Shown piece after piece: positions 34,732 to 38,185 of a stretch of 64,000 bases of DNA (position 1 is the first letter of the stretch; the number at the start of each line of letters is the position of its first letter). The stretch is from Serratia quinivorans (lineage in GTDB: Bacteria; Pseudomonadota; Gammaproteobacteria; Enterobacterales; Enterobacteriaceae), in contig UGYN01000002.1 in the NCBI GenBank assembly GCA_900457075.1, positions 4,960,001 to 5,024,000 on the forward strand. The letters are read 5' to 3'. The translations under genes and the position numbers were made by a program. The notes under the pieces are model-generated. The model worked only from the letters and a program-made list of their open reading frames with translations. It did not search any database and was not told where the DNA came from.

Positions 34732-34811
34732 CTCTCGGGGCGCAGCGCTCCGCGCCCGAAATCCAGCAGCGATGATATACTCAGGTTAGTTATGACTTGT
34801 TGAGCCGTTTT

Positions 34812-35708
34812 ATGGATATTAAGCAACTGATCTACCTGTGTAATCTCGAACGTGAACGCCACTTTGGCCGTGCGGCGCAAGTCAGCTTCGTCAGCCAGCC
34901 GACGTTATCCATGCGGCTGAAAAATCTGGAAAAAGAGCTGGGCGTTTCGTTGATCAATCGCGGCAACAATTTCGAAGGCTTTACCGCTGAGGGTGAACGG
35001 GTGCTGTCGTGGGCGCGTGAGATTGTCTCGGTTTATCAGGGGCTGAAGCTGGAGGTCGAGTCGCTTAAGCACGGCCTTAGCGGCACGCTGCGCATCGGTG
35101 CCGTTCCTCAATGCAGCATTTCGCTGGCACAAATGTTAAAGGCGGTCAGCGAGCGCTTCCCGCAGTTGGACTACCGGGTGTCCGTGTTGAGCGCCGATCA
35201 GTTGCTGGAGGCGTTGACGGCGCATACCGTGGATATCGGCATCGGCTTCTTTGAACTTTCCACGTTGCAGGAGCTGCATTTCCAGTCGCAGCCATTGGCG
35301 GACGCCGGCGTTGAATTGGTGTTCCATCCTGAGTACTTCCCCGAACTGACAGGGGATACGCCAATGACGTTGGAGGAGGTGGCGGCACTGCCGCTGTGTC
35401 TGGCGGAACCGACGCGTTATTTCCGCCGCTACCTTGATCAAAACTTCCGTGAAGCCGGCTTGACGCTGCATGTACGTATGGAAACCACCTCGATATTCCA
35501 ATTGCTGCAGGGCATTTTTGTTGGCCTGGGCTGCGGATTGTTTCCGCCAGGCAACCTGTTGCCGACCATGATGCCGGAGCTACAACGCAGGCCGGTGACC
35601 ATCGCAGCCATGTCACGTCACGCCGCAGTGGTCACCGCCGAGCCAGGGCGCGCATCGCCATTGGCGCAGCACTTTTTTGATGCCGCGCGCGGTTGGCTGC
35701 TGCGGTAA
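34812..35708 (+). CDS. LysR-family transcriptional regulator
   Basis: A 298-residue regulator. The N-terminal winged helix (MDIKQLIYLCNLERERHFGRAAQ, SQPTLSMRLKNLEKELG) is LysR type. The effector domain starts about residue 90 (LSGTLRIGAVP) and contains EPTRYFRRYLDQNF and GIFVGLGCGLFPPG. Target and ligand are unknown. Its stop abuts that of yciW on the other strand with no spacer, so the two are convergent. Confidence 0.88.
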   Translation: MDIKQLIYLCNLERERHFGRAAQVSFVSQPTLSMRLKNLEKELGVSLINRGNNFEGFTAEGERVLSWAREIVSVYQGLKLEVESLKHGLSGTLRIGAVPQCSISLAQMLKAVSERFPQLDYRVSVLSADQLLEALTAHTVDIGIGFFELSTLQELHFQSQPLADAGVELVFHPEYFPELTGDTPMTLEEVAALPLCLAEPTRYFRRYLDQNFREAGLTLHVRMETTSIFQLLQGIFVGLGCGLFPPGNLLPTMMPELQRRPVTIAAMSRHAAVVTAEPGRASPLAQHFFDAARGWLLR

Positions 35709-36899
35709 CTATTCCGCCTGACTTTCGTTGAAGTACTGTGTGTCACCCAGGGTTTGACGTAAACGGTTCTCCCAGGCGTAGAGTGCCCCGGTCAGGATCA
35801 CGTCCAGCGCCTGGGCCTGATTCATCCCACTGTTAAACAACGGCTGCACGCTACGTGGAGTGAACTTTTCCGGCGTGCGGGTCAGGTCTGCTGCCACGCG
35901 GATCACCGCCTGATAAACCGGGTTATCGGTGCTCTCCAGCCCATGATCAATATTCTCGAACAGAGCACTGACCAATAAGTCATGCTCAATATCCTGCGCC
36001 ACGGTGGAGGCACAATAGCGACTGCCGTTAATGCGCGAAACTGCCAGCGTCGCCAGTGCCTTCAGCCGCGCCGACAGGCCATAGCCGTCGGCATTAATGC
36101 TGTTAAATACGCCGTTGCGCTCACGTAGCGCGGGGGCATCGTGGGCCAGCAGCAGATAATAAGACTCGCTGCGGGCGTCGGGGTGGCTTTGATCCAACAC
36201 GTCAAGTTGTTCAGCGCATGCCTCCTCCAGCACCACCGATGGCAGCCGTGCTTGCCATGCCAATTCTTCCGTCGTGAAAAGCACACTTTCAGCATCCGCT
36301 ATGTTCGGGAAACCGGGCACCACGCCAGTTGGTCGCCCGGCTAAGGCGGCCACGCCGGCCACCACCCGCGCCTGATAGCTGACAAAGCCGATGATCTGCG
36401 AAAACGCCACAATATCTGCCGGGCTGAGCCCGACGTCGCTGAGCTGTTGTAAGGCTTTAGGGCAAATCAGGGTCGGCTGACTGGCGAGCTGACGGGCATA
36501 TTGGGTGATTTGTGCCAGGCGGATGTTACTTTCTCGGGAGGCGTCAGGGCTGTACAGCGGGGCGAGGCGGGCAGCGTAATGGCTACAGAGGGATTGCACG
36601 CCGGTCACCTGTGCCACCGTCAGCGCAGTACTGAGACGGTCGTAAGGTGACAATGTCACTGTTCGCGTTAATTCGACCCGATCCGGGAACAGTACGTGGT
36701 AACTGGCCAGCGAGGCGTTAAATACCCCCGCGCGTGCGGTCAGTGCCGTATTCAGCGCTTCGTCGGCAAAAGCGCCCAGCCCCAGCAGGAAGCGATCGCG
36801 GATACCGGCCGCCTGGGGTTCCAGCGGCTGGTCACCGCGCACGCTGCTTTGGGTTTCGTGATACCACTGGGCATTATGTTGTCGACGTAGTAGTTCCAT
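35709..36899 (-). CDS. yciW: YciW, AhpD/CMD-like protein linked to cysteine metabolism
   Basis: A 396-residue protein placed before the sap genes like E. coli yciW (about 375 residues), which has been reported as CysB-dependent and involved in cysteine and methionine metabolism. It looks like two fused carboxymuconolactone-decarboxylase/AhpD-like halves: DIVAFSQIIGFVSYQARVVAG (about residue 165) and RLKALATLAVSRINGSRYCAST (about residue 290). The redox CxxC expected in AhpD reads GSRYC here, with Ser at the first Cys position, so AhpD-type peroxidase chemistry is doubtful. AAGGA lies 10 bases before the ATG. An unusual Cys-codon leader precedes it. Confidence 0.82.
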   Translation of the reverse strand: MELLRRQHNAQWYHETQSSVRGDQPLEPQAAGIRDRFLLGLGAFADEALNTALTARAGVFNASLASYHVLFPDRVELTRTVTLSPYDRLSTALTVAQVTGVQSLCSHYAARLAPLYSPDASRESNIRLAQITQYARQLASQPTLICPKALQQLSDVGLSPADIVAFSQIIGFVSYQARVVAGVAALAGRPTGVVPGFPNIADAESVLFTTEELAWQARLPSVVLEEACAEQLDVLDQSHPDARSESYYLLLAHDAPALRERNGVFNSINADGYGLSARLKALATLAVSRINGSRYCASTVAQDIEHDLLVSALFENIDHGLESTDNPVYQAVIRVAADLTRTPEKFTPRSVQPLFNSGMNQAQALDVILTGALYAWENRLRQTLGDTQYFNESQAE

Positions 36900-36959
36900 A
36901 GGGGATAGTCCTTAATCAAGCACAACGGCCACCGCTGCAAGAGGCAACGGCGGCAAGAT

Positions 36960-36999
36960 AAAAAGGCAACCTGCCCACACAGGGGCACGGAATGGCAGG
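36960..36999 (-). terminator. Putative attenuator hairpin in the yciW leader
   Basis: On the minus strand CCTGCC (36994-36999) pairs with GGCAGG (36970-36975), while an inner TGCCC can pair with the same GGGCA arm. The sequence TTGCCTTTTT follows. The stem begins right after the stop codon of the Cys-ending leader ORF and 60 bp before the yciW ATG. Confidence 0.5.
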
Positions 37000-37000
37000 A

Positions 37001-37102
37001 TCAGCGCTGACTGTCGCAACACAGTGCGTGGCCATAAACAGAGAAACCTGCGGCTAAAGCGAGCAAAAACTGCGCGAGTTGGCGATGGCGTGGGCTGTTC
37101 AT
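37001..37102 (-). CDS. Putative yciW leader peptide (33 residues, ends with tandem Cys)
   Basis: ATG at 37102 with AGGA ten bases upstream. It has a basic N-terminus (MNSPRHRQ), a hydrophobic core (LAQFLLALAAGFSVYGHA) and then LCCDSQR and a TGA. The two Cys codons (TGT TGC) lie eight codons or fewer before the hairpin at 36960-36999. The peptide is too short for standard gene calling. Its position, Cys content and hairpin suggest a regulatory role. The hydrophobic core also resembles a signal sequence, so a small secreted or membrane peptide is an alternative. Confidence 0.5.
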   Translation of the reverse strand: MNSPRHRQLAQFLLALAAGFSVYGHALCCDSQR

Positions 37103-37313
37103 CAGTGCGATATCCTGTCGTTTAAGAAGCTCAACGTAGGGGATATCCTCACCGATTCGATTGACGAGATAAAATAATGTTAAGTGCTAATCAATAACTG
37201 AATGGAATAAAATATAATGAGATATAACAAAAATGTAATTTGTATTTGAGGATATTGGCTAAGCCAGTGCCGGGTAGATCAACAAGTCTGTCCGGCATGG
37301 CTTAAGCGGACGT

Positions 37314-37346
37314 CACCCTCTCCAGGGGGAGAGGGCTGGGGTGAGG
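37314..37346. repeat. CCCTCTCC/GGAGAGGG palindromic repeat
   Basis: ACCCTCTCC-AGGG-GGAGAGGG followed by CTGGGGTGAGGGG, a common bacterial interspersed palindrome. It lies between the yciW leader and the sapF stop. The rest of the 37103-37372 spacer is AT-rich (yciW promoter side), with no ORF seen. Confidence 0.6.
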
Positions 37347-37372
37347 GGCTCATGCATCTCAGGACCGAAGGA

Positions 37373-38185
37373 TCAGAACCTGCCGCCGTCGCGCCGCCAG
37401 GCGTCCGCGGTCAGGGCTTCACCGAAGTGGCTGGCGATCAGGCGTTTGGTCAGTTCGTGAAGAGGAGAAGCCAGTACCTCTGCGGTACTCCCGCGTTCGA
37501 CGATTTCCCCTTCGTGCATCACCATCACCTGATCGCTGATATGCTTCATCATTCCCAAATGCTGGGTCACGTAGATATAGGAGATGCCGTGTTTCTCCTG
37601 CAGCTCCAGCATCAGGTTGATGATCTGCGAGCGCATCGACATATCCAGCGAGGCCAGTGCCTCATCAGCAACGATCACCTTGGGTTGCAGGATCAGCGCC
37701 CGGGCCAGCGCCACCCGCTGTTTCTGGCCTGAGGCCAGCATGTGCGGGTAATAATTGGCGTGGTCCGGCAACATGCCTACCTGGCGTAGCGTCTGGTTGA
37801 TGTGCTGCTCGCGCTCCGGGGCGGCCATTTCGGTATTCAGCCGCAGCGGGGCATCCAGCAGTTGGCCAATACGCTGGCGAGGGTTGAGCGAAGTGCTCGG
37901 GTCCTGAAATATCATGCGAATGCGCTGGCTACGATAGCGATAGTCACCATAGTCAAGCCGATGATCGTCGATCAGCAGCTCGCCGGATGAAGGCTCCACC
38001 ATGCCGGACAGCATCTTGGCCAGCGTCGACTTACCGGATCCGTTCTCGCCGATGATGGCCAGCGTTTGCCGTTCGCGCAGGGTGAAACTGACCGATTTCA
38101 CCGCCTCAACGTGCTGGCGGCGAAACAGCCCGGTACGGTAGCGGTAGGTTTTGCTCAGATTGCGCACTTCCAACAGCGTTTCCAT
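37373..38185 (-). CDS. sapF: Peptide/polyamine ABC transporter ATP-binding protein SapF
   Basis: One of two ATPases of the Sap transporter. Walker A is GENGSGKST (about residue 47), the signature is LASGQKQRVALARAL, and Walker B is VIVADEALASLD. It is 270 residues against 268 in E. coli. Last gene of the leftward sapABCDF operon, starting one base after sapD ends. Sap in Salmonella protects against antimicrobial peptides; in E. coli SapBCDF has been reported to export putrescine. Confidence 0.95.
   Translation of the reverse strand: METLLEVRNLSKTYRYRTGLFRRQHVEAVKSVSFTLRERQTLAIIGENGSGKSTLAKMLSGMVEPSSGELLIDDHRLDYGDYRYRSQRIRMIFQDPSTSLNPRQRIGQLLDAPLRLNTEMAAPEREQHINQTLRQVGMLPDHANYYPHMLASGQKQRVALARALILQPKVIVADEALASLDMSMRSQIINLMLELQEKHGISYIYVTQHLGMMKHISDQVMVMHEGEIVERGSTAEVLASPLHELTKRLIASHFGEALTADAWRRDGGRF

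Follow-up and report, generated by a model that had tools for sequence, protein, structure and literature searches.

A Conserved Leader Reading Frame With Tandem Cysteine Codons Upstream of yciW in Serratia and Related Enterobacteria

Introduction

Leader reading frames for amino acids other than cysteine are well known in enterobacteria. The locus of Serratia quinivorans described here raises the question whether a leader of this kind, carrying cysteine codons, controls the gene yciW, and by which mechanism it would do so. In the window, that is, the whole stretch of 64,000 nucleotides that was analyzed, yciW is preceded by a short ORF ending close to two adjacent Cys codons. The sequence-only reading had proposed a cysteine-responsive attenuator, in which ribosomes stalled at the Cys codons upon cysteine limitation would prevent the formation of a terminator. 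Comparison with related genomes supports the Cys-codon leader well, whereas the transcription terminator part of the proposal is not sustained.

The regulated gene, yciW (35709..36899), encodes a protein of 396 aa that is 37% identical to E. coli K-12 YciW and has a weak Pfam CMD match. Like the leader ORF, the hairpins, the SD sequences, the promoter block and the 5' UTR arms described below, it is carried by the (-) strand. Its ATG is located at 36897-36899 and its Shine-Dalgarno (SD) sequence, AAGGA (36909..36913), stands 9 nt before the ATG; ATTAAGGA is present in the 26 Serratia rows of the alignment. In E. coli, the gene order is sapF-ycjD-fabI-yciW. The tie of yciW to cysteine and CysB, given in the sequence-only reading, agrees with a review, where a CysB motif is reported to precede yciW in E. 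coli and the mutant is described as hypersensitive to cysteine. The same source states that disruption of yciW raises cysteine production in E. coli and that YciW protects this bacterium from excess cysteine.

Two observations concern the surroundings of the gene. A LysR-family regulator gene (34797-35708, + strand) is convergent with yciW, and their reading frames meet end to end at 35708/35709. Elsewhere in the genome (G000:C2:4374609-4375673, locus L040), there is a second yciW-like gene, with 32% identity; among the matches listed, such a second match occurs in 15 of 30 same-genus genomes.

Conservation and Selection of the Leader ORF

The leader ORF (37001..37102) has 33 codons, MNSPRHRQLAQFLLALAAGFSVYGHALCCDSQR-TGA, and its product ends with GHALCCDSQR. 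An SD sequence, AGGA (37113..37116), also seen in the aligned 5' UTR rows, is located 10 nt 5' of the leader ATG. The tandem Cys codons, TGT TGC, are codons 28 and 29 (37016..37021). Hence, the ORF, its ribosome-binding site and its LCCDSQR-stop ending had been described accurately from the letters alone. The leader stop is separated from the yciW ATG by 101 nt. In the direction of yciW, this interval comprises a small hairpin at 36972-36987, then a T-rich tail at 36960-36969, a stronger hairpin at 36928-36954 and finally the SD sequence of yciW.

A scan of species genomes finds the leader in all 14 distinct named-Serratia loci. More broadly, the ORF and its start context are present in 31 of 33 distinct upstream regions of Serratia and of the genus g166, a set that combines named and further species genomes after removal of duplicates (L108-L112 having been set aside beforehand) and in which one g166 species is counted twice, as L104 and L014, in both the 33 and the 31 rows. 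As in all comparisons presented here, these counts refer to related genomes and not to independent events. The two regions without an anchored leader, L098 and L100, both come from smaller genomes and show by eye a decayed version of it; in L100 (G583:C3, a same-genus genome of 2.5 Mb), yciW itself is broken by several stops. A leader profile search of 295 genomes of the family gives strong matches (E 4e-19 or better) in five of them, four Serratia and G361; with at most 26 candidates scored per genome, the remaining matches (E 0.0066 or worse) look like chance.

The substitution pattern indicates that the reading frame of the leader and its Cys codons are under selection. Indeed, in 23 distinct Serratia ORFs representing 26 rows, pS is 0.358 and pN 0.093 in the leader frame (dN/dS 0.20), as compared with dN/dS values of 1.09 and 1.27 in the other two frames. 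Moreover, the leader frame is open over the leader length in all 31 Serratia and g166 leaders, and the other frames in 0/31 and 6/31. A chance ORF is rejected, since selection is frame-specific, and the leader is presumably translated in cells, as judged from this coding signature. Codon 28 is TGT in 12, TGC in 8 and TAC in 3 of the 23 distinct ORFs, and codon 29 is TGC in 17, TGT in 5 and GGC in 1; because TGT and TGC are exchanged synonymously at both positions, cysteine rather than the bases appears to be kept. Cys-Cys is found in 22 of the 26 Serratia rows (mean chance in mononucleotide shuffles 0.046, a figure that is not a P value, the rows being related), and thus in 22 of the 31 Serratia and g166 rows. 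Tandem Cys codons are not universal, since the other nine have a single Cys: this applies to the five g166 rows, to three rows with Tyr-Cys and to one with Cys-Gly. Nevertheless, codon 28 or codon 29 encodes Cys in each of the 31 rows.

Selection is not uniform along the leader. The dN/dS ratio is 0.80 for codons 2-10, 0.056 for codons 11-27 and 0.13 for codons 28-33, with variable residues after D30. The constraint on codons 11-27 exceeds what a sensor of tRNA charging needs, which points to a role of the nascent chain in control in Serratia. Taken further, the same contrast would fit an arrest peptide, in which residues 11-30 (QFLLALAAGFSVYGHALCCD) stall the ribosome on a small molecule, cysteine or other, in the manner of TnaC and instead of tRNA-Cys sensing. 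The g166 leaders, which keep LAAGF.xYG..LC though the tandem Cys is absent, point in this direction. Nevertheless, likeness to such peptides is by layout only, and the nearly neutral leader body of the genus g15 (see below), with Cys codons as the common element, argues against it. We regard this explanation as a minor possibility for Serratia.

Strong conservation at the protein level, together with a basic N-terminus and a hydrophobic middle, could also be expected of a small membrane or secreted protein with a function of its own, encoded next to yciW without acting on it. However, every leader examined adjoins yciW and begins at the start site that the unrelated g15 leaders also use, a search of the same genome found no second copy of the leader peptide, and the N-terminal codons are nearly unconstrained. 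A small protein of this kind is therefore very improbable.

Other annotations of the region were considered. A comparison of 36500-37600 with Rfam gives a single match, unrelated and under its gathering score, and a known RNA family was rejected on this basis. Coding between the leader and yciW was rejected as well, with pN/pS of about 0.7-0.9 in all three frames (8 of 31 rows excluded from this calculation). Finally, an overlapping ORF starting with MATHCVA was discarded as a gene, its ATG missing in 11 of the 12 marcescens-type rows.

Hairpins Between the Leader and yciW

The classical attenuation model predicts that a ribosome stalled at the Cys codons blocks a terminator and that yciW expression rises. 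Two structures could provide this terminator. Hairpin 1, TGCCCC-...-GGGCA (36972..36987), is the terminator stem of the sequence-only reading and is seen by eye in 23 of the 26 Serratia rows; it is followed by an interrupted T-rich tail, TTGCCTTTTT (36960..36969), 60 nt before the yciW ATG. Hairpin 2 (36928..36954) has an 11-bp stem, GCCGCCGTTGC/GCAGCGGTGGC, without a T-run.

Sequence comparison does not favor hairpin 1 as a terminator. By eye, it is lost in L081 and L085, altered in L084 and absent from the four g166 species; it is thus missing in some species whose leader is intact. Its tail (TTGCC..) is interrupted. The CCTGCC ... GGGCAGG arrangement, from which a terminator and an alternative pairing had been proposed, does stand 3' of the leader in the window, but the two motifs are complementary in only 2 of the 26 Serratia rows, the window and L073. 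When the best hairpin-plus-T site of each of 31 rows is considered, the T-tail score exceeds 3 only in these same two rows, where the stem amounts to -4.5 kcal/mol. In many rows, including L087, L094 and L104, the best site is hairpin 2, whose stem is strong but whose tail (TGTTG..) scores poorly, at about 2 and, in L101, at most 2.97. In one row there is no site. L101 and L104, both from g166, contain stretches of six or seven T that no hairpin 1 precedes.

The window's best site outscores 96 of 100 dinucleotide shuffles. In the six rows tested in this way, the number of shuffles, out of 100, that reach the best site is 4 for the window, 0 for L075, 0 for L080, 8 for L087, 0 for L094 and 0 for L104. 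Therefore, stem-plus-T-like sites appear to exceed chance, without being strong terminators. These sites, and the strong hairpin 2 stem in L087, L094 and L104, are points in favor of attenuation.

Hairpin 2 itself is well kept. In 25 distinct rows, 93.1% of the cells of its stem are paired, as compared with 25-34% when the stem is slid by one or two columns; sliding by three columns, along a GCC/GGC repeat, gives 63.4% and 88.5%. Its covariation is modest, the score being reached by 11 of 500 shuffles, and neither the pairs changed on both sides (1) nor the further pair types (10) are in excess, since 377 and 455 of 500 shuffles, respectively, reach these numbers.

Consensus folds differ between groups of species. 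The 11 liquefaciens-type rows fold as a stem around the Cys codons followed by hairpin 1, with a mean pairing probability of at least 0.95 for each, an arrangement reminiscent of the uORFC-8-2 leader of cysS as described in PMC8632094, which also speaks for attenuation. In contrast, the 12 marcescens-type rows combine the Cys-codon stem with hairpin 2, and a four-pair GGCA/TGCC stem replaces hairpin 1. L081, L084 and L085 were left outside both fold groups. Hairpin 2 and the short stem around the Cys codons are the helices that both main groups share. Neither the alignment nor the consensus folds revealed a mutually exclusive antiterminator fold conserved across Serratia, so that the RNA folding called for by the sequence-only reading does not uphold the terminator/antiterminator pair. 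That reading had also named the loss of the ORF, of its Cys codons or of the hairpin among close relatives as evidence against itself: the ORF and the Cys codons are kept, whereas the hairpin is lost in some species. In addition, there is no room for a terminator in g15, because the leader stop is located 11-13 nt before the yciW ATG. Overall, from these comparisons, an intrinsic terminator of normal strength is no conserved part of the system, and we consider classical attenuation through hairpin 1 and TTGCCTTTTT, or through hairpin 2, unlikely.

A pairing of the leader-stop region (UGAUCCU) with the SD sequence of yciW was also envisaged. It is not claimed, being broken by eye in L088, L097 and g166.

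The Leader in Genus g15 and Other Genera

Among 25 species genomes of the genus g15, 22 have yciW. In this genus, an ORF upstream of yciW starts in the CAGGATAT..ATG context seen in Serratia, behind the same promoter block. At 19 of the 22 yciW loci, this ORF has 38-46 codons and ends with [R/C]-Cys-Cys-[P/L/R]-stop, in a Cys-Cys-X-stop arrangement directly followed by TAAC(TT)GGAGGT..ATG of yciW. The distance from the leader stop to the yciW ATG is 11 nt, or 13 nt in L168, where a TT insertion is located 3' of the leader stop; the SD sequence of yciW thus begins 1-3 nt past this stop. The distance from the leader ATG to its TAA takes six values (117-141 nt), in frame in all 19 rows, and the other frames are open in 0/19 and 3/19. 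Frame openness alone is weak evidence here, because 20-48% of shuffled bodies are open and the genomes are also related. The three exceptions, out of frame at that stop, were excluded from the g15 statistics: L157 has lost the Cys-Cys ending, and in L158 and L163 another ORF, with Cys located midway along it, extends beyond the yciW start.

The g15 leader body is close to neutral (pN 0.386, pS 0.455), and its last nine codons are constrained (pN 0.142, pS 0.393). Because the body is nearly neutral, the Cys codons are the element shared with Serratia. GTTGCTG is invariant as DNA in g15, so that a constraint at the RNA level is possible at this place. In single-sequence folds, made without a control, the SD sequence of yciW is mostly paired, with mean unpaired values of 0.00-0.40 in 18 rows; for the 19th, L168, the window used to assess SD pairing was placed beside the SD sequence.

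In the single g175 genome, an ORF of 56 codons contains two Cys-Cys pairs and stops 11 nt before the yciW ATG. It is the only SD-preceded ATG ORF of 10-70 codons with Cys-Cys found in 50 regions outside Serratia, g166 and g15 (32 plus 17 loci and E. coli K-12, a sample that covers some of the 196 genomes giving a match); none was detected in the other 49, including the fabI-yciW gap of E. coli K-12. The anatomy varies between genera. In the alignments, the leader start site is common to Serratia (g1), g166, g175 and g15. In g112 and g123 (L108 of G318, L109 of G306 and L110 of G440), the conserved UTR and the ATG that open the leader in Serratia open yciW itself, without a leader. There, yciW begins with MTSPRLRE... 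or MSNPSP-MEALRR..., similar to the leader N-termini MNSP, MSNP and MLxP. From this resemblance, a single insertion or fusion event seems to have produced both the leader and the N-terminus of yciW.

Promoter and 5' UTR

Upstream of the leader, a conserved block, TTATTCCATTCAGTTATTGATTAGCACTTAACATTATTTTATCTCG (37165..37211), nearly invariant in 15 rows, is presumed to be the CysB-activated promoter of yciW. A part of it, TTAGCACGTAACATTATTTTATCTCGC, recurs upstream of yciW in 14 of 29 more distant loci when up to 5 of its 27 positions may differ. That the promoter is CysB-driven is presumed from the E. coli link given in the review, and PMC11329422 describes the CysB consensus as very weak. 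The length from the promoter block to the leader is the same in 38 of 40 distinct rows. No second copy of the promoter/UTR element was found in the genome.

The 5' UTR carries an inverted repeat. Its 5' arm, GATATCC (37141..37147), is present in all 40 distinct anchor-matching UTR rows; L098 and L100, without an anchor match, do not have it. Its 3' arm, GGATATC (37109..37115), overlaps the leader SD sequence, and its last base differs in 6 of the 40 rows, all from g15. Pairing of the two arms would hide the leader SD sequence; the 5' arm being invariant, these 40 rows are uninformative on covariation. In other genera, a different pair, GGGTC...GGACCC, is seen by eye over the SD sequence of yciW, and E. 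coli-type UTRs have GGATCCG...CGGATC-like arms. Between sapF and the leader promoter, the window also contains a repeat-like element, CCCTCTCC...GGGGTGAGGGG (37310-37350), and a similar stretch is located before yciW in L103.

Relationships With Known Leaders

The yciW leader has the usual marks of an amino-acid leader peptide: a short ORF, with translation deduced from selection, located upstream of a gene linked to cysteine metabolism, and repeated Cys codons near its stop (22/26 in Serratia, 19/22 in g15). The conserved intrinsic terminator and the conserved mutually exclusive antiterminator fold that define trp/his-type attenuators were both lacking in the rows compared. TnaC of tnaCAB is a constrained leader peptide followed by a long spacer without an intrinsic terminator. 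The Serratia leader resembles it by its constrained peptide and its long spacer, and differs from it by the ligand, the residues and the downstream gene. The selection pattern in Serratia would be compatible with a TnaC-type arrest, and that in g15 would not.

Cysteine leaders have been described in other bacteria. For mycobacterial polycysteine short ORFs, cysteine-dependent attenuation through elongation speed is reported (Canestrari et al., 2020, as cited in later papers). These ORFs share with the yciW leader contiguous Cys codons in a short ORF upstream of the regulated gene. However, they are found on leaderless mRNAs of Actinobacteria, whereas an SD sequence, a presumed CysB-type promoter and yciW are involved here, and Serratia further differs by its constrained peptide and its 101-nt gap. 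Other actinobacterial leaders (PMC1262725) also have runs of Cys codons near the stop without a conserved terminator hairpin; the authors suggested Rho-dependent control and made a comparison with tna. The likeness is one of layout, these leaders preceding cys operons and cbs and not yciW. Finally, in uORFC-8-2, upstream of cysS in Rhodobacterales, tandem Cys codons of a uORF are held in a first stem (PMC8632094). Nevertheless, this alphaproteobacterial leader has in all cases a terminal stem with a U-run, and its Cys codons are usually codons 14-15, as compared with 28-29 in Serratia. The yciW leader was not assigned to uORFC-8-2, which is defined by its position upstream of cysS and a two-stem RNA ending in a U-run.

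In the open-licence literature, as far as accessible and including PMC9231021, no description of a Cys-codon leader for yciW was found; likewise, no Cys-codon leader was met for enterobacteria in that literature, mostly covered at the level of listings. Hence, Cys-codon leaders are already known as a kind, the yciW case may be new and the Serratia branch may be a variant.

Proposed Mechanism

From conservation and selection taken together, the ORF is very probably a selected regulatory leader, and cysteine is probably its signal. Most likely, the leader is a ribosome-progress switch that matches yciW to the cysteine supply. The CysB-type promoter would produce an mRNA with a short 5' UTR, from which the leader would be translated. 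How fast ribosomes pass the Cys codons before the leader stop would reflect the charging of tRNA-Cys and set the yciW output, acting on translation or on Rho access. We lean, by a modest preference, toward this mechanism.

In g15, a ribosome finishing the leader would open the yciW start or be handed over to it, and a ribosome stuck at the Cys codons would sit on this start. This geometry favors control at translation in g15: most predicted folds sequester the SD sequence of yciW, which directly adjoins the leader stop. Since a stalled ribosome would cover the yciW start, cysteine limitation should lower YciW. We infer from these arrangements both the sign of the response and the controlled step, translation or Rho. 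The sign would be opposite to that of the sequence-only reading, which expected more yciW on cysteine limitation. Because YciW is reported to guard E. coli against excess cysteine, making it only with charged tRNA-Cys would make sense.

In Serratia, a direct hand-over is unlikely because of the 101-nt gap with its hairpins. As in the tna leader, the position of the ribosome could instead determine how the mRNA folds or whether Rho gains access to it, and the constrained nascent peptide just behind the Cys codons would assist. Rho access, as suggested for the actinobacterial Cys leaders (PMC1262725), would fit the absence of a strong terminator in Serratia.

Two ways of sensing may also have arisen at the same start site. 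The g15 leader would read tRNA-Cys at two or three codons set against the yciW start, and the Serratia leader would be a nascent-chain sensor, the 17 residues behind the Cys codons stalling on a thiol or cysteine. We hold this dual scheme to be rather doubtful; if true, it would provide a natural example of interconversion between a codon-counting leader and an arrest peptide.

Concluding Remarks

Beyond CysB, a Cys-codon leader would add a second layer, based on tRNA charging, to the control of yciW in enterobacteria. With a free body and a fixed Cys-stop ending in g15 vs. a fixed body in Serratia, the two branches would form a natural experiment on the evolution of leader peptides.
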